Assembly: GCA_023105745.1 (NCBI GenBank)
Contig: JALGQZ010000011.1
Location: 17,448,975 to 17,512,974, forward strand
Source of the DNA: Austropuccinia psidii
Lineage: Eukaryota > Basidiomycota > Pucciniomycetes > Pucciniales > Sphaerophragmiaceae
Length of the DNA: 64,000 nt
Reading direction: 5' to 3'
Part shown: positions 11,193-62,329 of the stretch, piece by piece
Numbering within the stretch: position 1 is the first letter of the stretch
How the letters are laid out: every line of letters starts with the position of its first letter
Made by a program: the position numbers and the translations under genes
Notes under the pieces: model-generated
What the model saw: only the letters and a program-made list of their open reading frames with translations
Database searches by the model: none
Told to the model about the DNA's origin: nothing

Positions 11193-12537
11193 TCATTCTT
11201 TGAATCGGCATGAGATTGTATTACCATCCCTGATTTGATAGCCCGCTCTCTCGCCAATCTCATAATAGCCATTGCTTTTTTGCCGCATTGTTTTTGCTAA
11301 CCTGCTTGAGCATTGTGCGGACATACCCACTAGTGTCGTGCTTTCGTTGTCCTGTGCTGGATCAGTATAATGAACAAATGTACTACTGGCCCACACTACC
11401 TGAATGAGCCCATGACATGTGGATAGATCAATCCAAAAATGCTCATTTGGGAAAATCAATTTTCCCCCTGTACACCGCTTTGACGCATCTCTTTGAATTT
11501 GGCCGGTCCGCTTATCAGCTTGAAACCACCATCCCGAAGCATACAGCGATGCATCCTTATCAACATGAGGTGCGATTTTGAATCCATTCATGGTGAAAGT
11601 GAGTGCGGAAGCGAACTCGAATGCACCCTGATTTGCCGGAATATCGCCTTCATAGTTGACTTGATCAAAAGACGGAACCCCCAATGAGTTGTAGCAATTT
11701 TGAATCTTCTGAAATAAATTATCCCCAACATATCGTAAGGATTGACCTAGAATGCGACCCACCGAGCTAAGATTGGCACCTCGGTCCCGCCATTCATCTT
11801 TTGCATTTTCAATTTTGCCAGCACTACCATACAGACCAAATTGTTCATTCTTCGTGGTGCATTTGCGCCACCCAATCGCGAACATAAATCCCTCCAGTAA
11901 TGCTCCATTTGTTGCAATAGGGTCAGTGAACCTCTTTTCGCGAAATAAGAATTGTGATAATTCATCCCATTGATTGACCTCGACTTCACTCATTGTTGTG
12001 AATGGTCGGAATTCAACAAGGGCAATGAGTAATCCGGTTGAAGAGAAAATTGCCACACGGCCAAAGTGAATGCGTTTGATCTGATTGACATCCACCACCC
12101 TCCGAATTTCACTTGGGGTGATATTTGCTGATACTGGCATTGATATTTGTGCTGTTGGGCGAGAGGAGGAAAAAAACCTATTCATTCGGGTCGTTTTGCG
12201 CTCATTTGTCTTTTGGGATCTGCTACTATTCCCGAGTGGTTGCGGGATCACTATGTGTTGAAGCACACAAGATATCAGATACTGCCAAGGAGCTTTCTTC
12301 GGCACACATCCTTTGACTTCCCTGTTAGAGCCCACATGACATTGGCACAATCTGAACCGACTAAAGCCCATGTTCTTCAGTGGGGCCCAATGAGGGTGCC
12401 ACATAAATGTGGAAGCATATATATATATCTATATATATACACTGAGATTAAGCGAGTAACTCACACTTTCCTTCCTCAGCCCGACGCTTTCTCGCGAGTT
12501 CCCTTTTACGCTCTTTTCCTTTTTTCGTGAATGGCAT
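11193..12537 (-). CDS. TET/JBP-family 2OG-Fe(II) dioxygenase, two exons, 412 aa
   Basis: This belongs to the fungal TET/JBP family, whose founding members oxidise 5-methylcytosine or thymine in DNA using 2-oxoglutarate, Fe(II) and oxygen. Proposed exons are 12537-12467 (Lys/Arg-rich start MPFTKKGKERKREL) and 12360-11193, joining in frame (1239 nt). The iron site HxD is visible as PHVDKD (His codon 11565-11567). It is followed by GWWFQADKRTGQ, CTGGKLIFPNEHFWIDLS and the distal His in FVHYTD (11370-11372), in the order and spacing of the family. The stretch after the distal His reads TTLVGMSAQ. Where homologues as I recall them carry the 2OG-binding Arg, a Leu is seen, so activity is uncertain. 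In Agaricomycetes these genes are expanded and often linked to KDZ DNA transposons; no KDZ transposase is visible here. The gene is bracketed by palindromes P4 and P5. The first exon is the less certain one. Confidence 0.85.
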
Positions 12538-42276: not shown

Positions 42277-44251
42277 TGTGGTATTCCATACCATTTTCTT
42301 TCACCAGGCTCAAGCTCATAGTACCCCATAACAGCAGCAAATCCAGCCTACAGGCAGACTTACACTCAAATTTTACACCAAAAGGTTAATTTTACAGCAA
42401 GAAGCTGGATTTAACTCATAAAACCATGGCACAGGCACCAAAGGGCAGTGTATGTGTTTAAATAAATTATTCAATTTCATTATGCATATGTCAAAAATCA
42501 AGTTACATATAGTACACTAGTTACAACAAATGAGGTACCACCCTTTAAATTACACACCCCACCCAGCTTTACACCCCCCTACAGCCACAGGACTCATGCA
42601 ACAAGAAAATGACACATGCATTAGTTATACAGCCAACTTGCATTCAAAGTCACATGATGCAAAGCTCAGCTCCATGGAATTCCTGCAATTTATTTACAAC
42701 ACAGCCCCAGGAGTACCTTATCTTATATCCACAGTAACCCCACTTAAAACCTTAAAACATATTTATTTACACCACTCATCACCTCATGCAAACCAAAGCA
42801 AGTTACAACAGGTTGCATGCAGTACACAATTTTATTCAAATCTCAACCACATGACTATGCACAGCATGTGTCAAACTCAAAAATCACATCATCTCATACA
42901 TAACAGTAAATTCACCAGTGCAAGAAATTATCACCTGACTTCATTTTAAAGTTCAAAAAGAAGAAAAACAACCCTGACACCTGCATAAATTACACAGCCA
43001 CTTCTACCAAACCTAAAATAGGACATATGCAAAGGAATTAAAAGGTCATCATGTGATACTGCATCCACCAACAGAATATCATGTGACAGGAAAGAGGCTG
43101 TGCACAACAAAAATCCCCAGCCAAAATTGAATCACCTCATGTATGCAAGGCAAATTCAAGAATATCACATCATAATTAGTTCACCAAAAAGACAATCATG
43201 TGATAAATGGAGGCTGTGCAGAAAGAAAATTATCACCAAACCTTAAATCACCTGACCCATGCAAGAAAGGTCCTCACCAAAAACAGAGTCACATGATGAA
43301 ATCAAGAGGAATTAAAGTGGAAGAAGACAGCTCCAATGGAGGGCCCCCTGGGCTCTCAAAAGGTATAAATAGAGGGGCTCTCTCCCCCCAATTTTCAAAT
43401 TCCCCCGCATGCACAATATATCCTCTGCACATTACAAGCACAGGAATAAGTCATCCCTCACCTGGGAGGTAGTCCAGCAAATTATAGTGAATTTACTTAC
43501 CCAGTAGCTAAGCTCAGTGGAAGTATAGTGTTGAAGATTACCCAGTAGCTAAGCTCAGTGGAATCTTATTATTATTAAAATAAAAATAAAAATTACCCAG
43601 TACCCAAGATTAGGGTTACTACTCTATTAAAATATTTTATCCACTAAAATTAAAACAATTTATCAAGACTTAAAAATAACTTAACCTTTAAAAATTCAAT
43701 ATCAAAGAACCTTACCTCTTAAATTCAACAAATAAAATTTTATCTTATTATTAAACACTCTTAAAAAAAAAATAACAAACCTTTCAAAAAATTATTTTAC
43801 TATATTAAAACTTTAACTTAACAAAACTACCTTTATCAACACCCATCAAATCTTTCAGAAAACCTTAAATAACCCATCCTACCAAGGATTTATCACCAAG
43901 AAGAAACCACTCACCTCAATTTAACCAAAAAATATTAAAATTAAACAGACAAGTATTCCATTAAAATATCAAATTTAACCAAAATTACTGACATTATTTT
44001 TCATATTATTTATTGAATAGGTCTGATCTGAGACTGCTGAATTTTGTCTTCTGCAGTTGTAAAGCCATTTACTAATTTTATTTTGGTTTGTGAGCTCCAA
44101 GGAAGATTTTGTTCAGTATTTTAGGAGGGGCAGGCAATACACCCTTGCCACCCTTGGTTACAGGAGTTATTAGCAATTCAAAACTAGTTACCTGTGATTT
44201 CCCCCTCCAGGTACTGCCTCATTTTAATCCCACACAAGAGGAGTTCCCACA
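42277..44251 (+). repeat. Element 5, 5' LTR, 1975 bp
   Basis: Carries TATAAATA at 43364-43371 and a 41-bp repeat (ACCCAGTAGCTAAGCTCAG..., one full and one partial copy at 43499-43563). Two open frames inside (42530, 43200) recur identically in the other LTR only because the LTRs are identical. Confidence 0.93.
43364..43371 (+). promoter_or_regulatory. TATA box in element 5 5' LTR
   Basis: GGTATAAATAGAGGGGCTC is conserved in the right LTR at 61359-61366. The 41-bp repeat lies about 130 bp downstream, within the presumed transcribed part of the LTR. Confidence 0.7.
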
Positions 44252-44530
44252 TCTGGTGTCCCAACAGTGGCCAGTCAACCTCAAACTTCAATAACATATA
44301 AATAAAATTCCAATAAATCAAAAAAAAAACTACATTAAAAAATATTATTGCTATAACAAAAACTGGATTCAAATAATCAAAATCATCAAAAACCATAATC
44401 TCAAGAATCTGAATCATCAACTCACTCTGACCATTACTATTATCCACCCAAACAAGAATCAGAATTAGGAGAGGAATCAGAAAAATATTCTAATTTTCCT
44501 ATTGCAACACCAAGAACCAATAAAAGGGAC
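44252..44530 (+). other. Element 5 leader
   Basis: Begins TCTGGTGTCCCAACAGTGG directly after the LTR, the primer-binding-site position; the tRNA was not identified. The gag reading frame is already open from 44399 without an ATG. Confidence 0.5.
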
Positions 44531-47500
44531 TTGAAGGTTGTGGAAAAATTCTTCCTTGATCTCCTTGAAAGAAATAAACTCAATAAATCAATCTCAAAAG
44601 AGGAAATTAACCAATCAAAAATGGATAAACCTTCATCATCAAAATTACCTGGTAGTATTGAAGAAATCCAGGAAGAAAACTTTAATGAAGAAACTGTTGA
44701 AGGACAGGAAGAAATGTCTTCAACAGAGAGACTTCAGCAGAAGATGCTAGAAATGCAAGCAGAATTACTAGCATTAATCAAAAAGGAAGGCAAAAATAAA
44801 TCATCAAGTTATACTCCACAAAATAGTCCACTTGAAGAGCAAACCACCCTTCCAAGATCATTCAGGCAGCATGGATCACCTTCACCTTATCCTAGACCCA
44901 TGGCCACATCAACACCTTATACAGAACAAAGACAAAGTACCTTACCAAGAAGAGTCAACATTTCTTCCCAAATGCCAACTCCATTACATCAACAAATTCC
45001 AAGAAACACTACTCCAATAGTGAAAATCAGAGCCAAGTACTACAACTTGTGGTTTGATGGAAAGGATGTTGAAAGATTCATCAAGAAAGTTGAAAATATT
45101 GCAGAAATTGAAGGAGCAAGTGGAAGAGACATTGCAAGACAAATAATATTTTGGACAAAAGATGAAGAAATCAGTTATCATATTGAAGGAATGCCAGGAT
45201 ATGAAACAGCTGATTGGGATCAATTGAAAGTGGATATGAAAAGAAGATGGGGAACAGTCTCACCTGAAAGAAGATACAGATTATCCTCAATCACTGATTT
45301 ATTCACAAAACCTCAACAAGAAGATGGAATAAGAAACATGACTCAATACAGAAAATTCATTGGGGAATATGAAGCAATCATCACTTACCTCAAAAGATAC
45401 CAATATATCCAAGCTGATATCAATCATAACCAGGAAATATTGGCCAGCCTTTCCACTAGTGTTCAAGAATCAATTTACAAAGAAATGATTAAAGACAGAG
45501 CTATGGTCCAAGCCTTGGATGGAGGTTACATCATTCCAAGATTGGATATTTTGAAATTATACATTGAACAAGACTTGGAGGCCAAGGTACTTATTCAACA
45601 AAAGGAATTTTCTAAACCAAAACCTCCAGAAAAGAAAACAAGATTTGAGGATGAAAACTGGGATGAAGTTTTAAAACAAGTAAAAGAACTCACCCAAAAG
45701 ATCAAAAATCCTCCACAACCAGAACCTCAACCAAGAAATGAGGGAAAAGAATCAGTTAAAGAAGTTTTAAATCAACTCAAAACCCTTTCAGAAGCAGTGA
45801 ATCCACCAAGAAGGAATTGGAACAACAATCAAGAGCAAATATTACCTCAAAATAATCAGCCATATAGGCCCAGGAATCCTTTACCACCATTTTCATCCAG
45901 TTATCAACCTTACATACCAGCTCAAATGGCTCCAAGACCACCAATGAAATGTGCTTACTGCAAGGAAGAAGGACATTCAGCAACTAGATGCACTCACCTT
46001 GCTGAAGATTTGGACAAAAGGATTGTCAGAACTCAAGGAGCATCTTACCTTTTCCCCAATTATCAGAGAGTACCTATTGAAGGAAATGAAAGTGCCAAAG
46101 ACATAGTCAGAGCTTTTGCAAAGGAACAAGCAGAACTCAACAAGAAATTTATGGAAAAACCTGCTGTCAAACCAAAACCAGAAGAAGAGTTTAAGCCCAC
46201 TGAAAAGAAACAAGAGGATAAATCAACCTCAATTGCACATGTTGAAGATTGGTCAAATTGGAAACCACCTACTATTTCCTCAGCCAATGACCCATTTGAA
46301 TCACACATTGGATTAAGGCAGACCAAACAAAGGTTGGAAAGACAATCCCAAAATCAAGAGCCAAAGAAGAAAGCAGCTATTCCAGGAACTTACATTGAAG
46401 AAGAAAAAGAAGAGGAAAGAGTCATAATTCCCACCAAATTCCAACATTCAAATATTCCAAAACCAGAGCAACCTGAGGAGGAAATTGAAAATATTGCCAA
46501 TAAGAATGAAGATGAAGACATTCCAAAAGAAAAGAAAGTCAGCAAACCTCAAAAGAAACAAGCTGAAAGCAAACTAGAAATTGACAAAATTATTAAGAAA
46601 ATCATGCAACAAAAGATCAACCTCACCATTGAAGAAATTTTGAGGATGTCACCAAATTTTGTCCATAAATTACAAGAATTATCAGAAAAAGACAAGGAAA
46701 AAATTAAATCACTCAACTCAATGGATCTTCAAGAAAGACTATTATCATTTGGATTCAAAGAAATACCCAAGCCCAAGATTCATTATGCCTGTCCTTTGGG
46801 ATTTATGGAAATCTTCATTGGAAAGGAAGAATATCCTATCAGAGCATTAGTAGACACTGGGGCAGAACTCAACATTATACCAGAAGAAATAGCAATCAAA
46901 GCTTCACTCACAACAAGAAATCTTAACATGAACCTCAGAGGTATTGGAGGACATACCACTTCATTGGTTGCACTATCAGAATTTACTCCAATCATTTTGG
47001 CTTCAGGTGAAGAAACTCTAATTCACTTCTTCATTGCCAAAGGATCTGTCCATACAGTACTTGGAAGACCTTTCTTGGCAGACAACAATATCAGACTAGA
47101 ATTCTCCCATAAACAAGGTGAAATACTAAGCTATCAAGAACCTGATGGAAGAAGATTATGCATGCCAATATGCAAGCCTCAAGCACTTGGATGGCAAACT
47201 GGTCCACCTAGAGGAATGGATTTATGCAATATGGCAACATTGGTCAGAAATAACCCAGGAAAGAAGTTTCAAAATGCAAAAAGAGACAATACCATAACCA
47301 ATTTAACCCAGAAGACCCAAGAGTTATCCATATCTCCAAAAAGTGATAAATTTGGTCAAAATTTACAAAATACCCAATGGCCAAACAACCTCAAAAGACA
47401 ACTTGAAGACTCAACCTCTGAAGATGAATTACCCAATATAATTTACAAGCCAATTAACAATAAGGAAGAAACATTCCAAATTTTGGTGGATGGAAATGAG

Positions 47501-48247
47501 AAAATACATGGAAACCCTTTCAAACCTAAACCCAAAAAGAATAAAGTCAGATTTAGTGAACATCATGAGCTCTCAGATGAAGAAATTATAAATGACATTG
47601 AAAAAGACCTCAAAATTATGGAAGAAAGAGACAAAAATTTAAAAGACACATACCATATCAACTTCTTGGACAGACCATTGAACAACCAAGAAGAACCTTA
47701 TGAATGGCAACTGGAAAACCCTGAATTCATCCACCAACCTCCCAATGAAGATGATGAAACAGAATCAATCCTAGAAAATGAATACAACTACATTTACTTG
47801 CCATATATCACTTTTGAAGATATTTATGGGGATGAAGCTCAAGAAATTTTATGTGAAGATAAATATTTATATCACCTTCCAGGAGCAAACTTGAACAATA
47901 TCCAATTCCTAGAACTATTAACTGAAGAGGGAATTAAAGGTAACCTCTCAAATCAATTCTGGGATAAAACATTTTCAATAGGAATTTTACCAAGAAGAGG
48001 TCTCTACTTCAATAAAATTTGGGCCCAGTGGTACCTTGGATTAAATGGATCAACATATCAAACTGGAAGACTGAAATGGGTTGGAGATGGATATATATTC
48101 ATTGATGAAGACTTATGGTGGTCAGAATTTCCATCAGAACCAGAGATTGAGGAAAGAAATAACTTTGTGGAAGCCCTCAAAGACCTTATTTTGACCAGAT
48201 TGCTCAACAGACACTCACCTTTCCCACTTGGGGGAGCTCAGCTTTGA
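44531..48247 (+). CDS. Element 5 gag-protease polyprotein with C-terminal accessory domain, 1238 codons
   Basis: This forms the particle shell and protease. The frame is open from 44399, and the first ATG in frame is 44621. Order: acidic coiled-coil-like N-terminus; capsid-like region at about 170-350 (YYNLWFDGKDVERFIKKVE, ISYHIEGMPGYE, WGTVSPERRY); Pro-rich linker; zinc knuckle C474/C477/H482/C487 (CAYCKEEGHSATRC); Lys/Glu-rich linker; aspartic protease with D775-T-G (ALVDTGAELNIIP) and ILASGEE...VLGRPFL; then about 400 residues with acidic patches and a domain at about 1090-1205 (LPYITFEDIY, LPGANLNNIQFLELLTEEG). That last domain recurs in the ORF at 48978. The whole frame is undamaged, unlike pol. 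Protease sits with gag rather than pol, so pol must be expressed by another route. Confidence 0.92.
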   Translation: MKVVEKFFLDLLERNKLNKSISKEEINQSKMDKPSSSKLPGSIEEIQEENFNEETVEGQEEMSSTERLQQKMLEMQAELLALIKKEGKNKSSSYTPQNSPLEEQTTLPRSFRQHGSPSPYPRPMATSTPYTEQRQSTLPRRVNISSQMPTPLHQQIPRNTTPIVKIRAKYYNLWFDGKDVERFIKKVENIAEIEGASGRDIARQIIFWTKDEEISYHIEGMPGYETADWDQLKVDMKRRWGTVSPERRYRLSSITDLFTKPQQEDGIRNMTQYRKFIGEYEAIITYLKRYQYIQADINHNQEILASLSTSVQESIYKEMIKDRAMVQALDGGYIIPRLDILKLYIEQDLEAKVLIQQKEFSKPKPPEKKTRFEDENWDEVLKQVKELTQKIKNPPQPEPQPRNEGKESVKEVLNQLKTLSEAVNPPRRNWNNNQEQILPQNNQPYRPRNPLPPFSSSYQPYIPAQMAPRPPMKCAYCKEEGHSATRCTHLAEDLDKRIVRTQGASYLFPNYQRVPIEGNESAKDIVRAFAKEQAELNKKFMEKPAVKPKPEEEFKPTEKKQEDKSTSIAHVEDWSNWKPPTISSANDPFESHIGLRQTKQRLERQSQNQEPKKKAAIPGTYIEEEKEEERVIIPTKFQHSNIPKPEQPEEEIENIANKNEDEDIPKEKKVSKPQKKQAESKLEIDKIIKKIMQQKINLTIEEILRMSPNFVHKLQELSEKDKEKIKSLNSMDLQERLLSFGFKEIPKPKIHYACPLGFMEIFIGKEEYPIRALVDTGAELNIIPEEIAIKASLTTRNLNMNLRGIGGHTTSLVALSEFTPIILASGEETLIHFFIAKGSVHTVLGRPFLADNNIRLEFSHKQGEILSYQEPDGRRLCMPICKPQALGWQTGPPRGMDLCNMATLVRNNPGKKFQNAKRDNTITNLTQKTQELSISPKSDKFGQNLQNTQWPNNLKRQLEDSTSEDELPNIIYKPINNKEETFQILVDGNEKIHGNPFKPKPKKNKVRFSEHHELSDEEIINDIEKDLKIMEERDKNLKDTYHINFLDRPLNNQEEPYEWQLENPEFIHQPPNEDDETESILENEYNYIYLPYITFEDIYGDEAQEILCEDKYLYHLPGANLNNIQFLELLTEEGIKGNLSNQFWDKTFSIGILPRRGLYFNKIWAQWYLGLNGSTYQTGRLKWVGDGYIFIDEDLWWSEFPSEPEIEERNNFVEALKDLILTRLLNRHSPFPLGGAQL

Positions 48248-48917: not shown

Positions 48918-48977
48918 ATTCAAATTCTTACTCTAAATTACCATTGAAAACCCATTAAACCTACCATCAAACTATTT

Positions 48978-49736
48978 TTGATAAATAAATTTGATACTAT
49001 TCTCTATTCATCTTACTTTAACACATCAAATCCCACCAAATCCTTCAAAATGGAGTCATGGCCATTACTTGATGAAAATCCCTGGTCAATGGACACAGAT
49101 ATCAGCTGGCTAGAACAAAAAGAATTCTGGGACAATTACATTAATCCACAAGAAATTGATGAAAATCCTGACTGGTTCTTGAAAATAAAACCAGAACCCT
49201 GTCCTGATATTTTCACCATAATACTTCCATACATTGAGTTTGAGGACATCTTTAAAAAAGAAAAACTACCATCTGAAACTATCATACCTCATCCATGGAA
49301 AGAATTACCTGGATTCAACCTCACAAAGTATGAATTCTTGGATTTACTGACCTGGGATGGAGTTGAAGGCAACCTTGGAAACAATTACTGGAATGAAATA
49401 TTCAACATGGAAGAACACCTCAGAAAATCATTATTTTGGAAAACCTGGGAATGCCAAGACTGGTTCAACCTTCATAATTTTGAAATTCAAAATGGAAAAA
49501 TTAGCAAGATCTCAAGAAACCATATTGTAGAAGATGCCACATGGGACTGTCACTGGGAAGAAGCACTCATACCAGCAATCCTCAGTCTTAAAAGTGGTGA
49601 AATTGAGCTTAATAAAGAAGCTTGGGACTCCTTCTGTCAAGAACACCTTTTCAAAACTTTCAAAAGAGAAAAATGGAGGGGAGGTAAAATTATAAAACAA
49701 GAATTATTAAAGAAATTACTTGGTCAAAGGAATTAA
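48978..49736 (+). CDS. Element 5 accessory ORF 3, 252 aa, paralogue of the gag C-terminal domain
   Basis: The likely initiator is ATG 49050 (AAAATGG; Met25 of the open frame). Residues 83-90 LPYIEFED, then LPGFNLTKYEFLDLLTWDGVEGNLGNNYWNEIF, align directly with gag LPYITFED, LPGANLNNIQFLELLTEEG and IKGNLSNQFWDKTF. The protein is rich in Trp and acidic residues. Its function is unknown. A duplicated domain kept open as a separate ORF suggests it is used, perhaps in particle assembly. No membrane segment or signal peptide is visible, so it is not env-like. Confidence 0.7.
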   Translation: MINKFDTILYSSYFNTSNPTKSFKMESWPLLDENPWSMDTDISWLEQKEFWDNYINPQEIDENPDWFLKIKPEPCPDIFTIILPYIEFEDIFKKEKLPSETIIPHPWKELPGFNLTKYEFLDLLTWDGVEGNLGNNYWNEIFNMEEHLRKSLFWKTWECQDWFNLHNFEIQNGKISKISRNHIVEDATWDCHWEEALIPAILSLKSGEIELNKEAWDSFCQEHLFKTFKREKWRGGKIIKQELLKKLLGQRN

Positions 49737-50248
49737 TCAAAATAAATCTCACCTGCTAAGTACCCAATTCTTTGATTCATCATCCATCCCATTTCCATTG
49801 ATATTATTATTATTTATTTCCTCAATTTTTTATTTTTTTTCTTGCCATTTCTTTATCTTTCCTCTTTACAATTCAATTTTCTTTCATAAAAAAAGAGACA
49901 AAAAAAAAGAAAATAATAAAATCTTAAAAAATTGAAAATAAGCTTCAATTCATATAAGCTTAGAAGGAAGAATTAAAATATAAACCTACTTGATATTGAA
50001 GAATTTTTATATTTGTTTTTTCAACATCAAAAAAAATATATATAAATAATTATCATCTTTAATTCTAAAAAATAATATAAATAAAAAGCACAATTAGTTT
50101 CAGTTTAATTCATATTAGTAGATGATAAATATAAAGGAAAAAAATCTTACATAATATCAAAATTCTATTTTATCATTTTCAACTTTAAAATTTATTCTAT
50201 CTCAGTTCTAACTTTTATCAACTAAAAAATTGAAAAAAAAAAACAAAC

Positions 50249-50279
<31 letters not shown>

Positions 50280-50290
50280 AAAATTAACCA
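49737..50290 (+). other. AT-rich non-coding part of element 5
   Basis: No gene seen. Contains a poly(A) tract at about 50229-50275. Confidence 0.6.
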
Positions 50291-50887
50291 ATAGTCCTAA
50301 ATAAGACTGTAAACTGTTTAATTCAATTTTTAACTTGGTTTTGAAGATAAATCAAAACCAAAATTATTATCAAGAAAAGAAATCAACCAATGTCCTTAGC
50401 AAGACAATAAACTGCTAATTTGGTTTTTTTTTATATGTTTAATTTTTAGGGCATGAATTCAAGGAGAATGACCCCCATGGATTCAAAATAAATAAATAAA
50501 AGCCCTCATCAAGGCTTTAAATGGATGATTTTCTTAAATTTAACATACTTTTATTTTTTATAACTAAATTAATTCAAAGCCTCTTATTATTCAAAAGGAA
50601 AACAATAAAAAAGGGGCTATGAATTAAAAAAAACAAAGAGCCCTGGGCAAGGCTTTAAACTGCTTGTTTTGCTTTTCTTTTGTTTTTTTTTTTGATAATG
50701 TTGGCTAATCTTCATTTATTGGCCTTTAAATTACTAACATTGTTTTTATTCAGTTAAGACATTGAAAGAGCCCTCATCAAGGCTTTAAACTGCTTGGTTT
50801 TTATATTTAATTATTGGTTCTTTTTTTTTCAGCTCTAACATTGTTTTTTCTATTTTTGATACAGGGATATTTAAAACAAAACAAAAA

Positions 50888-50890
50888 TAG

Positions 50891-50920
<30 letters not shown>
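50888..50920. repeat. (TA)n microsatellite
   Basis: A run of TA dinucleotides of about 30 bp inside the spacer. Confidence 0.9.
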
Positions 50921-50922
<2 letters not shown>

Positions 50923-51169
50923 ATGACCTCAGAAGGTTAAAATACAACAAAAAAAAAGAGCCCTCAGTATGGCTATAAACTGCTTATTTCATTTTTTATG
51001 ATTCAATTAGTTGACTAACCATTTTTTTGTTAGAGAATGAGGGCTGAAAATCAAATGCCCTCAGCATGGCCTAAAACTGCTTAGTTTTTTTATGAATTAT
51101 AATTTTGATTTTTTAATTGGCTGATTGAATTTTTTATTTTGAAATTCTACAGGGCTATAATAAAAAAAA

Positions 51170-52670
51170 AAGAAAGTCCTGAACAAGACTTAAAACTGTT
51201 TAATTTCTTTTTTTATTATTAAAGCTCAATATTACTGATTTTTTTTCTTTTGATTAATGTATTATAAAAAAAAACAAAGATGCCCTCAGCATGGCTTAAA
51301 ACTGCTTAGCTCTTTTATGAATTATAATTCTGATTTTTTAACTCGCTAATTGATTTTTTATTTTGAAATTGTACAGGGCTATAAGTTAAAAATAACAAAA
51401 AAAAAATTCCCTGAGCAAGGCATTAAACTGCTCAATTATATTTTTTATGTCTATTTATTGAATTATTCATTATTGAGTTTACTGATATTTTATATTTTCA
51501 GTTAGGAAAAATACCTTGGGAGGGCTTAAAAAAAATTATAAAAATTAAATAAAGAGCCCTGGGCAAGGCTTTAAACTGCTTGTTTTGCTTTTCTTGTGTT
51601 TTTTTTGATAATGTTGGCTAATCTTCATTTATTGGCCTTTAAATTACTAACATTTTTTTTATTCAGTTAAGACATTGAAAGAGCCCTCATCAAGGCTTTA
51701 AACTGATGATTTTCTTATATTCTTGTTTTTTATGTTTACAATAAATTATACTAACATATTTGATTTGGCTTTTACAGGTATTCAACATTAAAAAAAAAAA
51801 AACACTTTCAGGATCTTATAAGATTAAGAAAATGATTTTTAAATGAGAGGAGTCCTTAACAAGACTATAAACTGTTTAATCTAATTATGCAACTTGGCTT
51901 TGAAGATAAATCAAATCCCCTGAAAACCAAAAATTATCAAACAAAAGTGTTTGGACAAAAGAGGAGGCCCTCAGCAAGGCTTTAAACTGCTTATTTCTTT
52001 TTTCATTCTTAAATTGTGTTGGATACAAATGGAGCTGACACATTCAATTGTGCTACAGGTCTTCAATATACAAATGAGCCCTCAGTATGGCTATAAAATG
52101 CTTCTTTTACTTTATTTCTCATGATCTTTTTATCTTTGATATTAAATTGAACTGACATATTTTACCTTTTATGTGCTACAGGGCCATAAAGGACAATGCA
52201 AGCCCTCAGTATGGCTATAAACTGCTTATTTTGTTTTATTTTTCATTCTTACTTTATTTTTTGGATATTAAATTAAAACTGATATATTTCATTTTTTGAT
52301 AGGTAAAGGGCTACAAATAAAAGATAATGCCCTGAGCAAGGCTTTAAACTGCTATTTTCTCTTTTATGATTTCTTATTTTGAATGATAACTATACTAACA
52401 TATTTTATTTGGCTTCTACAGGTATTCAACATTAATAAAATATTTCTCTTATTTTATAGGCTTAAATATGCTTTTAAAGTGAAAATGAGTCCTCAATAAG
52501 ACTATAAACTGTTTGAACGACTTATACAACTTGGCTTTGAAGATAAATAACATGCCATGAAACCCCAAAGGCAACAATCAGGTTCCTGAAGACAACATAT
52601 GGTCCTTGGCAAGACCATAAACTGCCCACTCAGACTCTCAACAAGGACTCAAAGTAAAAAAAAATTAACC
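51170..52670 (+). repeat. Tandem 1.5-kb duplication, copy 1
   Basis: AAAGTCCTGAACAAGACTTAA at 51174 recurs at 52675, and the sequence that follows matches nearly base for base for about 1.4 kb. Each copy carries about a dozen hairpin motifs. Confidence 0.9.
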
Positions 52671-54115
52671 AAAAGTCCTGAACAAGACTTAAAACTGTTT
52701 AATTTCTTTTTTTATTATTAAAGCTCAATATTACTGATTTTTTTTCTTTTGATTAATGTATTATAAAAAAAACAAAGATGCCCTCAGCATGGCTTAAAAC
52801 TGCTTAGCTCTTTTATGAATTATAATTCTGATTGTTTAACTTGCTAATTGATTTTTTATTTTGAAATTGTACAGGGCTATAAGCTAAAAATAACAAAAAA
52901 AAAATGCCCTGAGCAAGGCATTAAACTGCTCAATTATATTTTTTATGTCTATTTATTAAATTATTCATTATTGAGTTTACTGATATTTTATATTTTCAGT
53001 TAGGAAAAATACCTTGGGAGGGCTTAAAAAAAATTATAAAAATTAAATAAAGAGCCCTGGGCAAGGCTTTAAACTGCTTGTTTTGCTTTTCTTTTGTTTT
53101 TTTTGATAATGTTGGCTAATCTTCATTTATTGGCCTTTAAATTACTAACATTTTTTTATTCAGTTAAGACATTGAAAGAGCCCTCATCAAGGCTTTAAAT
53201 TGATGATTTTCTTATATTCTTGTTTTTTATGTTTACAATAAATTATACTAACATATTTGATTTGGCTTTTACAGGTATTCAACATTAAAAAAAAAAAACA
53301 CTTTCAGGATCTTATAAGATTAAGAAAATGATTTTTAAATGAGAGGAGTCCTTAACAAGACTATAAACTGTTTAATCTAATTATGCAACTTGGCTTTGAA
53401 TATAAATCAAATCCCCTGAAAACCAAAAATTATCAAACAAAAGTGTTTGGACAAAAGAGGAGGCCCTCAGCAAGGCTTTAAACTGCTTATTTCTTTTTTC
53501 ATTCTTAATTTGTGTTGGATACAAATGGAGCTGACACATTCAATTGTGCTACAGGTCTTCAATATACAAATGAGCCCTCAGTATGGCTATAAAATGCTTC
53601 TTTTACTTTATTTCTCATGATCTTTTTATCTTTGATATTAAATTGAACTGAAATATTTTACCTTTTATGTGCTACAGGGCCATAAAGGACAATGCAAGCC
53701 CTCAGTATGGCTATAAACTGCTTATTTTGTTTTATTTTTCATTCTTACTTTATTTTTTGGATATTAAATTAAAACTGATATATTTCCTTTTTTGATAGGT
53801 AAAGGGCTACAAATAAAAGATAATGCCCTGAGCAAGGCTTTAAACTGCTATTTTATCTTTTATGCTTTCTTATTTTGAATGATAACTATACTAACATATT
53901 TTATTTGGCTTCTACAGGTATTCAACATTAATAAAATATTTCTCTTATTTTATAGGCTTAAATATGCTTTTAAAGTGAAAATGAGTCCTCAATAAGACTA
54001 TAAACTGTTTGAACTACTTATACAACTTGGCTTTGAAGATAAATAACATGCCATGAAACCCCAAAGGCAACAATCAGGTTCCTGGACACAAGATATGGTC
54101 CTTGGCAAGACCATA
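52671..54115 (+). repeat. Tandem 1.5-kb duplication, copy 2
   Basis: Second copy of 51170-52670. A few point changes are visible (for example TTCCCT in copy 1 is TGCCCT in copy 2 at 52900, which restores the stem pair). Confidence 0.9.
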
Positions 54116-54430
54116 AACTGCCAACTCAAATTATCAACAATAATCAAGAAAAATTAACCAATGGTCCTTGGAAAGACCATACAATTCCCCTTCAAATATA
54201 AACAAGAAATCACTAAAATTATCAACAAGGACCAAAGCAAAGAAACCAATGGTCCTTGGTAAGACCATAAACTGCCCACCATTAGAATTATCAACAAGAA
54301 CTCAAATTTACAACACAATCAAGCATTTTGGTCCTTAGCAAGACCATAAACTGCCTATTTAAAGTATTCAAAAAGATTGGAAAAGGACTACAAAAGGAGG
54401 ATAAGTCCTAGGCAAGACTATGAACTACCT

Positions 54431-56626
54431 AAGGTTTTATTTTTTATTTTCTCTAATTTTATTTCATTATAAAGAAGAATTAGAGAGAATTACTGACTCA
54501 AACCTTTTGAACATATTTTTTTATTCCTTTTTTAAGTTTATTTATTTATTTTCACTAAGAATTAGGGGCATATCCCATTCATGATCTCAAAAATATTTTA
54601 TTTATTATCTTTATTACACTTATCCTACTATCACAACAAGAGCCATCAAATTGGCTTAATATTTCAACTCAAAAAAAAACAAAAAAAAAAAAAAAAAAAA
54701 AAAAACAAACAAACAAACAAACAAAACAAACAAAAAAAAGAACAACTCTACATCAAGTATTTTTTTAAAAAAAAATGATCAATTTATTTGAAATATTTCT
54801 TCAATTACAAGAGAGTGATTGGAACTTGTTTGAAAATAAGAAGTATTTGTGTCATGAAGGAATTAATTGAACTCTGAAGGAGTTATTTATATTGGGGAAT
54901 TTACATATTAATAACACCTCAATGTGCTATTTATTCCAAATGGGATTGAACAAGCCCCTCAAAAGCAAACAAGAGTTTTTTTAAATTGTACAAATTTTCA
55001 ATTTCACTGTTTATATTTTTTTAACAACTCAAATGCATTTATGGGTAACAGAAAATCTGAACCATAAAGGGGATGGACTTGAAATAAAGTCTGAGTCACA
55101 ATGATGATTCCAGAAAGGAAGAGTTGTGGCATCATAAGGGTCATTATATGAATAAAGGACTCAAATTATGATCATTCAACTATGTAATATTAATCATAAA
55201 TACTCTCAAGAGCACCAATTTTTACTGATTGGCACAAATTACCACCTTCAACCAAACAGTTCCATGATCTTAATTGTGATTCATGTTTATTTCATTTGAA
55301 TTGTACTTTTTACTCAGATATTTCAGTTAATGGGTATTTTATACTTACAGTAAAAAGAATAAAATATATATATATATATGTATTGAATCATCATCAAAAT
55401 AAAATTATGTATATTTACTGTATCATTATTTATCCTCATCAAAATCACTATAAAAAATAAGGGGTGGGTAAACTTATTTCTTACACTATCCCTTATAGTG
55501 GAAGTTTTGGGGGAATGAGAACATATCCTCTTCAAAATTTGAAAACCAACTCAACATTTTTAAATGGAGAGGGGGGCCCTCATCCAAACAAATATTATAA
55601 AAAAAAATATATCAATAAATTAATATTAAAATCAATTTTAAATCACCTTATTATTACAATTTTTTTTTTTCATTTCTTTACAACAGGTATAATTCAGGAA
55701 TACAAAAGAACAAAAGGACATGAATTATTTTGAAGAAATAGCAAGAGAATTGGGAAACAACTTATCATAGGACAATTATTCAGAATACTGAAAATGAAGA
55801 AGATTATTTATGAAGAAAAGCAGGGGTTCCTTATGGATTAACCTTTGGACAACACAAGACCTTGGACACTTCTTTGATTCTGGATTGAAACTCATTTGGA
55901 ATTCAAGAATAACTGGCCAGGATTTATGGACTGAAGGATGACTCACTGGATTAATTCTTGACTCAGAACTCACTCAACATGATGGACCAACAAGATAATG
56001 TACAACACTCAACTCAAATTGCCCTTGGGATTTTAAAGAAGCTTGAAGACTCAAGAGGTCCTCAGCATGACACTAAACTGCTTCCCCTGTAGACTTGGGC
56101 AGGGAAACTTATAAAAGAAAATATTAGCCAAGAAGCTGGAGGGGATTGTCCTAGTCAGGAGAAGTGCTGAAGGACCACTTTTGTCCTTAGCATGACAATA
56201 AACTGCTCCCTTTGTGTAACAGGAACAAGGGGTTTCACAGGTGTTTATCATTATCAAATTGGCCAAAATGAACAAAGTGGAGTCCCAAGCCATCAATTAA
56301 AACAATAAAATTCCTCATCAAGAAATAAAACAAGCAGAAGAATCTTGCATCAAGTGGGAATCATGAAGATTGAAGAATAAAACAAGAGTCAAGTGGAATC
56401 CAAAATCAAGCCCAAAGGAGCTCAAGAATCAAGATAAGCCCTTGGATTAGGCCAGGAGGTCCTTGCATGACTTAAACTGCAGGACTTGTATACCTAATAT
56501 ACAGGGGTTACACACCTAGTTGTAGGTCCTGTATGACCTTAAACTACATTTTTTATAGAAGAAAGAAGAAAGAAGAATTGTGAAGACCTCAAGATTTCAG
56601 GACACTAGCAAATTCTTAGAAATAAA
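54431..56626 (+). other. Distal spacer of element 5
   Basis: No convincing gene. Holds a poly(A)/(AAAC)n tract (54668-54740), an internal polypurine tract (55562-55576) and four further hairpin motifs (near 56057, 56184, 56457 and 56525). The 89-codon frame at 55464 has no domain. Confidence 0.6.
55562..55576 (+). other. Internal polypurine tract resembling the element 5 3' PPT
   Basis: AAATGGAGAGGGGGG against AAATGGAGAGGGGGA at 60257-60271, preceded in both by T residues. The position, about 1.5 kb before pol, suggests a central plus-strand primer or a relic of an old 3' end. Confidence 0.6.
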
Positions 56627-60223
<3,597 letters not shown>

Positions 60224-60271: not shown

Positions 60272-62329
60272 TGTGGTATTCCATACCATTTTTTTTCACC
60301 AGGCTCAAGCTCATAGTACCCCATAACAGCAGCAAATCCAGCCTACAGGCAGACTTACACTCAAATTTTACACCAAAAGGTTAATTTTACAGCAAGAAGC
60401 TGGATTTAACTCATAAAACCATGGCACAGGCACCAAAGGGCAGTGTATGTGTTTAAATAAATTATTCAATTTCATTATGCATATGTCAAAAATCAAGTTA
60501 CATATAGTACACTAGTTACAACAAATGAGGTACCACCCTTTAAATTACACACCCCACCCAGCTTTACACCCCCCTACAGCCACAGGACTCATGCAACAAG
60601 AAAATGACACATGCATTAGTTATACAGCCAACTTGCATTCAAAGTCACATGATGCAAAGCTCAGCTCCATGGAATTCCTGCAATTTATTTACAACACAGC
60701 CCCAGGAGTACCTTATCTTATATCCACAGTAACCCCACTTAAAACCTTAAAACATATTTATTTACACCACTCATCACCTCATGCAAACCAAAGCAAGTTA
60801 CAACAGGTTGCATGCAGTACACAATTTTATTCAAATCTCAACCACATGACTATGCACAGCATGTGTCAAACTCAAAAATCACATCATCTCATACATAACA
60901 GTAAATTCACCAGTGCAAGAAATTATCACCTGACTTCATTTTAAAGTTCAAAAAGAAGAAAAACAACCCTGACACCTGCATAAATTACACAGCCACTTCT
61001 ACCAAACCTAAAATAGGACATATGCAAAGGAATTAAAAGGTCATCATGTGATACTGCATCCACCAACAGAATATCATGTGACAGGAAAGAGGCTGTGCAC
61101 AACAAAAATCCCCAGCCAAAATTTAATCACCTCATGTATGCAAGGCAAATTCAAGAATAACACATCATAATTAGTTAACCAAAAAGACAATCATGTGATA
61201 AATGGAGGCTGTGCAGAAAGAAAATTATCACCAAACCTTAAATCACCTGACCCATGCAAGAAAGGTCCTCACCAAAAACAGAGTCACATGATGAAATCAA
61301 GAGGAATTAAAGTGGAAGAAGACAGCTCCAATGGAGGGCCCCCTGGGCTCTCAAAAGGTATAAATAGAGGGGCTCTCTCCCCCCAATTTTCAAATTCCCC
61401 CGCATGCACAATATATCCTCTGCACATTACAAGCACAGGAATAAGTCATCCCTCACCTGGGAGGTAGTCCAGCAAATTATAGTGAATTTACTTACCCAGT
61501 AGCTAAGCTCAGTGGAAGTATAGTGTTGAAGATTACCCAGTAGCTAAGCTCAGTGGAAGTATAGTGTTGAAGATTACCCAGTAGCTAAGCTCAGTGGAAG
61601 TATAGTGTTGAAGATTACCCAGTAGCTAAGCTCAGTGGAATCTTATTATTATTAAAATAAAAATAAAAATTACCCAGTACCCAAGATTAGGGTTACTACT
61701 CTATTAAAATATTTTATCCACTAAAATTAAAACAATTTATCAAGACTTAAAAATAACTTAACCTTTAAAAATTCAATATCAAAGAACCTTACCTCTTAAA
61801 TTCAACAAATAAAATTTTATCTTATTATTAAACACTCTTAAAAAAAAAAATAACAAACCTTTCAAAAAATTATTTTACTATATTAAAACTTTAACTTAAC
61901 AAAACTACCTTTATCAACACCCATCAAATCTTTTAGAAAACCTTAAATAACCCATCCTACCAAGGATTTATCACCAAGAAGAAACCACTCACCTCAATTT
62001 AACCAAAAAATATTAAAATTAAATAGACAAGTATTCCATTAAAATATCAAATTTAACCAAAATTACTGACATTATTTTTCATATTATTTATTGAATAGGT
62101 CTGATCTGAGACTGCTGAATTTTGTCTTCTGCAGTTGTAAAGCCATTTACTAATTTTATTTTGGTTTGTGAGCTCCAAGGAAGATTTTGTTCAGTATTTT
62201 AGGAGGGGCAGGCAATACACCCTTGCCACCCTTGGTTACAGGGGTTATTAGCAATTCAAAACTAGTTACCTGTGATTTCCCCCTCCAGGTACTGTTTCAT
62301 TTTAATCCCACACAAGAGGAGTTCCCACA
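60272..62329 (+). repeat. Element 5, 3' LTR, 2058 bp
   Basis: Copy of the 5' LTR with about ten substitutions. It has three full and one partial 41-bp repeats (61494-61640), two more than the 5' LTR, explaining nearly all the length difference. TATAAATA lies at 61359-61366. Confidence 0.94.

Follow-up and report, generated by a model that had tools for sequence, protein, structure and literature searches.

A 64,000-nucleotide (nt) stretch of DNA from the rust fungus Austropuccinia psidii (contig JALGQZ010000011.1, positions 17,448,975 to 17,512,974; hereafter the window) carries a 20-kb Ty3-type long terminal repeat (LTR) retrotransposon, and between the gag-protease and pol regions of this element lies an array of 39 short RNA motifs. 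Each unit is an H-type pseudoknot, wherein the loop of a first stem pairs with the bases that follow a UAAAC spacer, and the two crossing stems covary. This pseudoknot is common to the fungal element and to double-stranded DNA (dsDNA) phages and a microvirus. The closest described RNA is coremin, an Xrn1-resistant RNA of plant and fungal RNA viruses. By analogy, we consider it probable that the pseudoknots act as coremin-like roadblocks to 5′-3′ exoribonucleases and leave behind protected RNA that contains pol.

Thirty-nine Units on One Strand

The units were counted with a motif pattern that fixes CT at the start of the loop and ignores pairing of the tail. This pattern identified 39 copies of 25-27 nt each between positions 50293 and 56549, all on the + strand. 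A covariance model built from the 39 copies, and searched without the CT constraint over the 64 kb on both strands with no filters, returned the same 39 and zero others at E ≤ 1. Both methods thus confirm the array of about 35-40 units that had been proposed in an initial annotation of this DNA. A strict pattern, GYCCTNNNNAWGRCNNTAAACTG, has 25 matches in the window versus 0 in 100 shuffled sequences. Five of the 39 alignment rows, which have a TAAAAC spacer, were re-parsed by rule.

Successive copies start 66-190 nt apart, except for two intervals of 1653 and 276 nt that both fall among the last five copies. Within the array region, no open reading frame (ORF) on the + strand reaches 150 codons, and 110 ATGs are present in 49737-57062. 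No Rfam 15 family matches positions 42000-62500 at E ≤ 1, and a search of the window for tRNA-like structures returned none. Two A-rich runs (50225-50275 and 54664-54734; 78% identical over 74 nt) flank the main block of 35 knots. Downstream of many knots in 50660-54400, T-rich sequence with CTAAC-like and YAG-like signals is followed by A-rich sequence, a layout that resembles an intron.

Two Crossing Stems That Covary

From 5′ to 3′, each unit comprises the first half of a stem 1 of 4 base pairs (bp), the nucleotides CU, the first half of a stem 2 of 4-5 bp, an A or U, the second half of stem 1, nUAAAC, and the second half of stem 2. The units had previously been read as simple hairpins with a single-stranded TAAACTG tail, a view that must be revised: the TG of this tail and the next two or three bases pair with the loop to form a second, pseudoknotted stem. 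Stem-2 pairings in the array include AGCA/UGCU, CAUCA/UGAUG, GGAA/UUCC, UGUA/UACA, and GGCA/UGCC. The paired substitutions that were noted earlier in stem 1 are all present, with AGCC/GGCT in 12 copies, AGTC/GACT in 8, GGTC/GACC in 6, TGTC/GACA in 2, and TGCC/GGCA in 1. Imperfect combinations occur as well, such as TGCC/GGCT (4 copies).

Among the 28 distinct rows of the alignment, 90.3% of the paired cells can form a pair, compared to 77.0% (SD 1.5) after shuffling, and the covariation score is 0.448 compared to 0.196; none of 500 shuffles reaches either value. When one side of the structure is slid by 1-3 columns, pairing falls to 21-40% and covariation falls too. Changes on both sides of a pair are seen at two of the four stem-1 pairs and at four of the five stem-2 pairs. 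Of the stem-1 cells, 95.5% are paired; the weak point is the outermost pair of stem 2, where 15 of 27 cells do not pair. Two of the five whole-structure measures are no better than shuffles, namely the number of double-change pairs (69/500) and the number of further pair types (45/500). Stem 1 is complete in 32 of the 39 copies, the first 4 bp of stem 2 in 35, and both in 28, and every copy forms at least three of the four pairs in both stems.

The cells that are not Watson-Crick pairs in the 24 distinct copies include 7 G·U, 2 A·C, and 7 other mismatches, and this excess of G·U over A·C weakly favors an RNA transcribed from the + strand. A palindrome that acts at the DNA level was considered and rejected, given that the stems cross, that one strand carries all 39 copies, and that G·U outnumbers A·C. 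Together, these observations support selection for RNA structure in the array, as the initial annotation had argued.

One challenge to this conclusion, raised in the initial annotation, is that the paired changes might derive from a few duplicated ancestral blocks. The array does contain a tandem duplication on the + strand (first 1.5-kb copy at 51158-52679; second copy, 97% identical, at 52655-54168), and a near-identical second copy exists for 12 units. When the 39 copies are clustered by their flanks, they fall into 25, 21, and 10 lineages at 90, 80, and 70% identity, respectively. At 65% identity, 38 of the 39 copies join one cluster, and therefore the array copies may share one remote ancestor. 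Covariation was examined again with one copy per lineage, using five draws each and 20,000 shuffles that do not model a tree. With 21 lineages, 80-82 of 84 stem-1 cells and 80-81 of 84 stem-2 cells are paired (P = 5e-5, the floor set by the number of shuffles). With 10 lineages, P is 0.0014-0.006 for stem 1 and 0.0002-0.0008 for stem 2. Because covariation survives the collapse to 21 or 10 lineages, duplicated blocks fail to explain it. Moreover, sequence identity over 210 lineage pairs is 0.718 within the motif versus 0.51-0.56 in the flanks.

All 39 pseudoknots are on the + strand and were found by both the pattern and the covariance model. Pseudoknots 1 and 2 are located at 50293-50319 and 50391-50417, and are followed by 3 (50501-50527; innermost stem-2 pair broken), 4 (50639-50665), and 5 (50769-50795; one broken stem-2 pair). 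Pseudoknots 6 through 11 occupy 50959-50985, 51056-51082, 51175-51201, 51281-51307, 51407-51433, and 51555-51581. Pseudoknot 12 (51682-51708) has the stem 2 CATCA/TGATG. Next are 13 through 19, at 51851-51877, 51966-51992, 52077-52103, 52201-52227, 52328-52354, 52488-52514, and 52601-52627. Pseudoknot 20 (52674-52700) is the first to lie in the second duplicated block, and 21 through 31 are found at 52779-52805, 52905-52931, 53053-53079, 53179-53205, 53347-53373, 53462-53488, 53573-53599, 53697-53723, 53824-53850, 53984-54010, and 54097-54123. Pseudoknot 32 (54163-54189) has the stem 2 GGAA/TTCC, 33 is at 54251-54277, and single stem-2 pairs are broken in 34 (54330-54356; the fourth pair) and 35 (54404-54430). 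Pseudoknots 36 and 37 lie at 56057-56083 and 56182-56208. The last two are shorter: 38 (56458-56482) has a shorter loop and the stem 2 TGCA/TGCA, and 39 (56525-56549), the last before pol, has a 6-nt loop and the stem 2 TGTA/TACA.

The Same Pseudoknot in Phages

A scan of the IMG/VR collection of viral contigs with GYCCTNNNNAWGRCNNTAAACTG identified at least 120 stretches (L001-L120; for example L045:5645-6027, L027, and L090), which are a sample of the loci. In that pattern the first pair of stem 2 is fixed, as is the G of its second pair. The rest of stem 2 and the outer pair of stem 1 are free, in that pairs 2-5 of stem 2 are unconstrained on the loop side and those from pair 3 onward on both sides. 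Pairs 2, 3, 4, and 5 of stem 2 nevertheless form in 136, 132, 131, and 116 of the 136 matches listed, and the free outer pair of stem 1 forms in 116 of them. Unrelated flanks are found for 117 of the 135 listed viral copies, and in these 117 the five pairs that are free on both sides outperform 2,000 of 2,000 shuffles, whereas five control column pairs do not outperform theirs. Both stems therefore covary in the viral copies as they do in the window.

The fold was examined in 19 named phage loci. Its carriers include the phages Mycobacterium Labelle, Nostoc NMeng1, Arthrobacter Molivia, Paracoccus ParMal1, Moorella MTATph1, Synechococcus S-EIVl, Staphylococcus SA13 and B166, Corynebacterium phi673, and Streptococcus Javan271, as well as a microvirus. 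Some named-phage copies have a broken pair, and the spacer of Molivia is longer. The fungal covariance model alone recovers 15 of the 19 loci at E ≤ 0.015; the four that it misses (L263-L266) are coremin-type and were retrieved with a coremin query. Stem 1 is replaced beyond what the pattern covers by CGAC/GTCG in Staphylococcus and Lactobacillus phages. A well-paired copy in a Vibrio phage, with the stem 1 TCTC/GAGA, lies opposite an annotated small gene.

A narrower pattern occurs only rarely in species-representative prokaryote genomes (28 stretches in 257 Gb), and the first four stem-2 pairs are present in 19 of the 30 matches there. The extended consensus, used as a 30-nt query, has no BLAST match in 5,426 Escherichia coli genomes, a search that BLAST does not make exhaustive. 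A coremin-like sequence is present in 7 of these 5,426 genomes with a chance-level E-value; one of them (L269; E. coli STEC1585, 801-821) lies ~105 nt before a gene for an integrase-domain protein. Rfam models applied to six viral loci matched only tRNAs at the gathering threshold, and the surroundings of the L045 copies gave one unrelated weak match at E ≤ 5. One viral contig has two adjacent units (L006:9929-10020), the second with an extra insert in its loop.

The listed phage records come, we presume, mostly from phages of Firmicutes, Actinobacteria, cyanobacteria, or Alphaproteobacteria. These groups and the missing E. coli match prompted us to consider a strict rule that the hosts possess RNase J. 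Matches in Klebsiella, Stenotrophomonas, and Vibrio alginolyticus phages fall inside annotated genes, and four Pectobacterium records are also listed. Given these records and the well-paired Vibrio phage copy, we do not claim such a rule.

Many phage copies lie just past a stop codon. Among the 129 listed matches with enough upstream sequence, 89 are preceded by an open frame of at least 60 codons that ends 0-39 nt before the knot. The distance from stop codon to knot is 5-9 nt in 60 of these 89 copies and exactly 5 nt in 29. Beyond the stop codon, the frames extend for a median of 14, 15, and 5 codons in the 0, -1, and +1 phases, and reach at least 50 codons in 10, 14, and 6 of the 89 copies. 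Because the frames after phage stop codons are mostly short in all three phases, recoding is unlikely as a general role. Frameshifting or readthrough was accordingly set aside as unsupported in this general form, the array itself being non-coding.

Genes for a scaffold protein and then the major capsid protein follow the knot in D6E, phiEF-1.1, and Javan271. In SA13 and B166, a minor structural or hypothetical protein precedes the major capsid protein after the knot, and in the microvirus the major capsid gene is next. Labelle, NMeng1, and Molivia have tRNAs downstream of the knot, and in S-CBWM1 tRNAs surround a copy of the coremin type. In other named phages the neighbors are hypothetical, helicase-, primase-, or ATPase-type genes. 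From 138 downstream ORFs, 65 were chosen by hand without a fixed rule. The scaffold families phrog_172 and phrog_194 are matched by 7 and 5 of these, and the major head families phrog_422 and phrog_267 by 5 and 4, where one protein may match several families; DNA polymerase and PhoH-like families are also represented. The phage pseudoknot is possibly an undescribed element of phage mRNAs.

Relation to Coremin and Other Structured RNAs

The coremin exoribonuclease-resistant RNA (xrRNA) is described as a 4-bp stem with a loop of the form YGAD or YGNNAD, in which G is required at position 2; the C and U of its spacer are essential, and a second, downstream hairpin is needed (PMC10520033). It stalls Xrn1 and, in vitro, makes scanning ribosomes slow down; as of the 2023 paper, its structure had not been solved (PMC10520033). 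Carriers of coremin, or xrRNA-C, include RNA3 of beet necrotic yellow vein virus and other beny-, cucumo-, hypo-, and chrysoviruses (PMC10520033, PMC5869530).

As far as these descriptions go, the array knot shares with coremin a 4-bp stem 1 (with a GYC/GRC core in the array), a UAAACU spacer directly after this stem, and a loop with Y at the first position, A at the penultimate position, and D at the last. At the two spacer columns that are essential in coremin, the array has C in 34 and U in 38 of 39 copies. Both RNAs are found at untranslated or intergenic positions, and in some RNAs the coremin motif is repeated. In contrast, the array loop reads CU-NNNN-A-W in most copies, with U in place of the required G at position 2, and forms a covarying second stem with the 3′ side of the spacer. 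Furthermore, the array lacks a general downstream hairpin, has 39 copies, and resides in a retrotransposon. We infer that the array knot acts in the manner of coremin, without assigning it to the coremin class.

Viral contigs appear to bridge the two forms. A strict coremin hexaloop pattern has 72 IMG/VR stretches (L158-L229), and in the 71 that were examined (the remaining one lies too near an end) the outer stem pair, which the pattern does not demand, forms in 67. These hexaloops have stem 1 and the spacer as in the array, but differ in having a CGNNAD loop, UA after the spacer C, and no clear stem 2. A looser scan of viral contigs yielded intermediates with a short stem 2 (CTGCAT/TGCA and CTGTAT/TATA) that connect the coremin-type and extended forms. 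A downstream hairpin, defined as one of -3 kcal/mol or better that starts within 4 nt in a 30-nt segment, is present in 13 of 130 listed phage segments and in 13 of 60 coremin-type viral-contig segments. The large natural set of sequences reveals which bases pair, and thereby offers a testable secondary-structure model of the extended form and, through the intermediates, a hint for coremin.

The initial annotation had stated that no motif of this form is described, which is partly right. Coremin shares stem 1 and the UAAACU spacer, and the full motif is common among viral contigs; in the open-licence literature, the motif itself was not found described in phages or retrotransposons, and no xrRNA was found reported from a retrotransposon or a DNA phage, or as an array of tens of copies. 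The -1 frameshift pseudoknots of luteoviruses and poleroviruses are compact and H-type, with a short loop 1, a 1-nt junction, and an A-rich loop 2, and the array knot resembles them in these respects; it differs in that the array is non-coding and the extensions past listed phage stop codons are mostly short. Flaviviral xrRNAs form larger, ring-like folds without sequence likeness to the array knot. What they would have in common is a block to 5′-3′ exonucleases, including RNase J1 (PMC5760640), which for the array is a proposal. Intergenic xrRNAs of plant RNA viruses likewise lie between genes and are proposed to give protected downstream coding RNA (PMC10520033), yet they belong to another fold class and to RNA viruses, whereas the array is part of a DNA-integrated LTR element.

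Possible Function of the Array

The fold (by covariation), its strand, its position, and its sharing with phages are established. That nucleases stall at the fold, and that such stalling serves pol expression or RNA stability, is inferred. According to this proposal, each knot of 25-27 nt would mechanically stop a 5′-3′ exoribonuclease at the base of stem 1. The 20-kb transcript, once decapped or cut, would admit Xrn1 in the cytoplasm or Rat1 in the nucleus, and the exonuclease would remove gag and then stall at successive knots. Protected 3′ RNAs with pol would remain, the last of which would have an A-rich leader and no AUG outside a knot before the pol start. In phages, an intergenic knot would provide the downstream mRNA or tRNA transcript with a protected 5′ end.

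A flaviviral xrRNA is reported to halt Xrn1, RNase J1, and Dxo1 alike (PMC5760640), and therefore one mechanical block that serves in both fungi and bacteria is plausible. In Bacillus subtilis, roadblocks at the 5′ end are reported to stabilize downstream mRNA with respect to RNase J1 (PMC3997798). A roadblock role would also explain the untranslated position between genes in both the phages and the element. If phage copies stop RNase J, they would represent a widespread and simple device that raises capsid mRNA and that could be used as an mRNA stabilizer.

Several observations weigh against a roadblock role. The number of copies, 39, far exceeds the need of a simple roadblock and is unexplained, as are the intron-like signals present in 21 of 39 units versus 7.8 in shuffled sequence. 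The array loop begins with CT in 39 of 39 copies and thus lacks the G of coremin, and a downstream hairpin is found in only 3 of 35 distinct fungal segments. In this copy of the element, pol is broken by an in-frame stop and a frame change. Under this proposal, the fungus may also have to translate pol from uncapped RNA. Lastly, there is the well-paired Vibrio phage copy, together with the chance-level coremin-like sequence of seven E. coli genomes, in hosts that are not known to possess a 5′-3′ exonuclease. Because of the Vibrio phage and E. coli occurrences, RNase J is not the whole story in phages.

A broader reading is that one class of compact pseudoknots, of which coremin would be the short form, serves as a general 5′-3′ exonuclease roadblock in dsDNA phages, RNA viruses, and a fungal LTR retrotransposon, and that the exonuclease itself makes the pol mRNA when it stops at the array, 5′ of the A-rich leader that lacks AUGs. 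We advance this reading tentatively and consider it somewhat doubtful. If it were true, RNA decay would become a step of gene expression in a retrotransposon; xrRNAs are known from RNA viruses.

Among alternative explanations, it is unlikely that the knots chiefly block or pause ribosomes, either scanning or terminating, and so insulate pol or act at the phage stop codon. The slowing of scanning ribosomes by coremin in vitro (PMC10520033) is in keeping with such a role, as is the fact that the most common phage offset is exactly 5 nt past the stop codon (44 of 130 and 29 of 89 listed copies). However, scanning ribosomes are not expected in an array that lies 3′ of the gag ORFs and has many ATGs and no long ORF, and the short extensions past the listed phage stop codons also speak against this role.

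It is likewise improbable that the knots are binding sites for a protein, with Gag recruited for packaging or dimerization, or a host factor, and with repetition providing avidity. Although each transcript would display many copies whose conserved, unpaired CU and UAAAC could be recognized, dsDNA phages and a microvirus carry the knot without such a Gag, and the array is situated between genes, away from the LTR leader.

We find it more improbable still that the branch-point-like and 3′-splice-site-like sequences after each knot offer alternative acceptors for a spliced pol mRNA. CTRAY is followed by YAG in 21 of the 39 units, whereas 200 mononucleotide shuffles average 7.8 and never exceed 15; but this shuffle disregards the order of T-rich and A-rich sequence within a unit, and near-identical second copies exist for 12 units. 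Moreover, a constant 5′ splice site is lacking: several copies have A or T just before the loop YAWG, and listed phage copies often carry the same GYAWG (G in 94 of 117), where a splice site is impossible. Finally, a neutral, satellite-like expansion, in which one ancestral knot was tandemly amplified into an array without a function of its own, would fit the 1.5-kb duplication, the several near-identical units, and the clustering of 38 copies at 65% flank identity, but is very hard to reconcile with a motif better conserved than its flanks and with compensatory changes across lineages.

The Carrier Retrotransposon

The carrier, a Ty3-type LTR retrotransposon of 20,053 bp, has an LTR pair, a target-site repeat, and the gag-protease-reverse transcriptase (RT)-RNase H-integrase order. 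It begins with TG and ends with CA, and is bounded on both sides by the 4-bp repeat TTAG. All of its parts are on the + strand. The 5′ LTR (42277-44251; TG...CA ends, flanking TTAG) is followed by an ORF for gag, a CCHC zinc knuckle that was read by eye, and an aspartic protease (44399-48247), and then by a 262-amino acid (aa) ORF (48948-49736) without a Pfam match. By eye, the latter resembles the C-terminal part of the preceding gag-protease ORF as a tandem paralogue would (motifs LPYI.FEDI and GNL.N..W). The array is succeeded by an A-rich (AAAT)n tract (56620-57055), an ORF for RT (57063-58133) that ends at the in-frame stop, its continuation in the same frame with RNase H (58134-59066), and a continuation in another frame with integrase (59015-59851). 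The 3′ LTR (60272-62329) is 95.5% identical to the 5′ LTR.

The first ATG downstream of pseudoknot 39 is that of pol, at 57063. None occurs in 56550-57062, and one ATG lies inside pseudoknot 39. The pol leader is mostly (AAAT)n, a repeat that is unable to contain ATG; these ~430 bp just before pol could be an unstructured A-rich leader. Seven of the 17 listed pol homologues (P0002-P0006, P0009, and P0021) start with Met near the same site, and the other 10 start further in or have longer upstream parts. The closest relatives of pol are from A. psidii, a rust of the Pucciniales. For RT, P0001 is 84% identical over 90% of the query and P0002 is 82% identical over the whole query; no relatives of RT were found in viral contigs.

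A 41-bp repeat occurs in four copies in the 3′ LTR (61494-61640) and in two copies in the 5′ LTR (43500-43565). Elsewhere in the window, an ORF on the - strand (11193-12428) encodes a Tet-like 2OG-Fe(II) oxygenase domain (PF20515).

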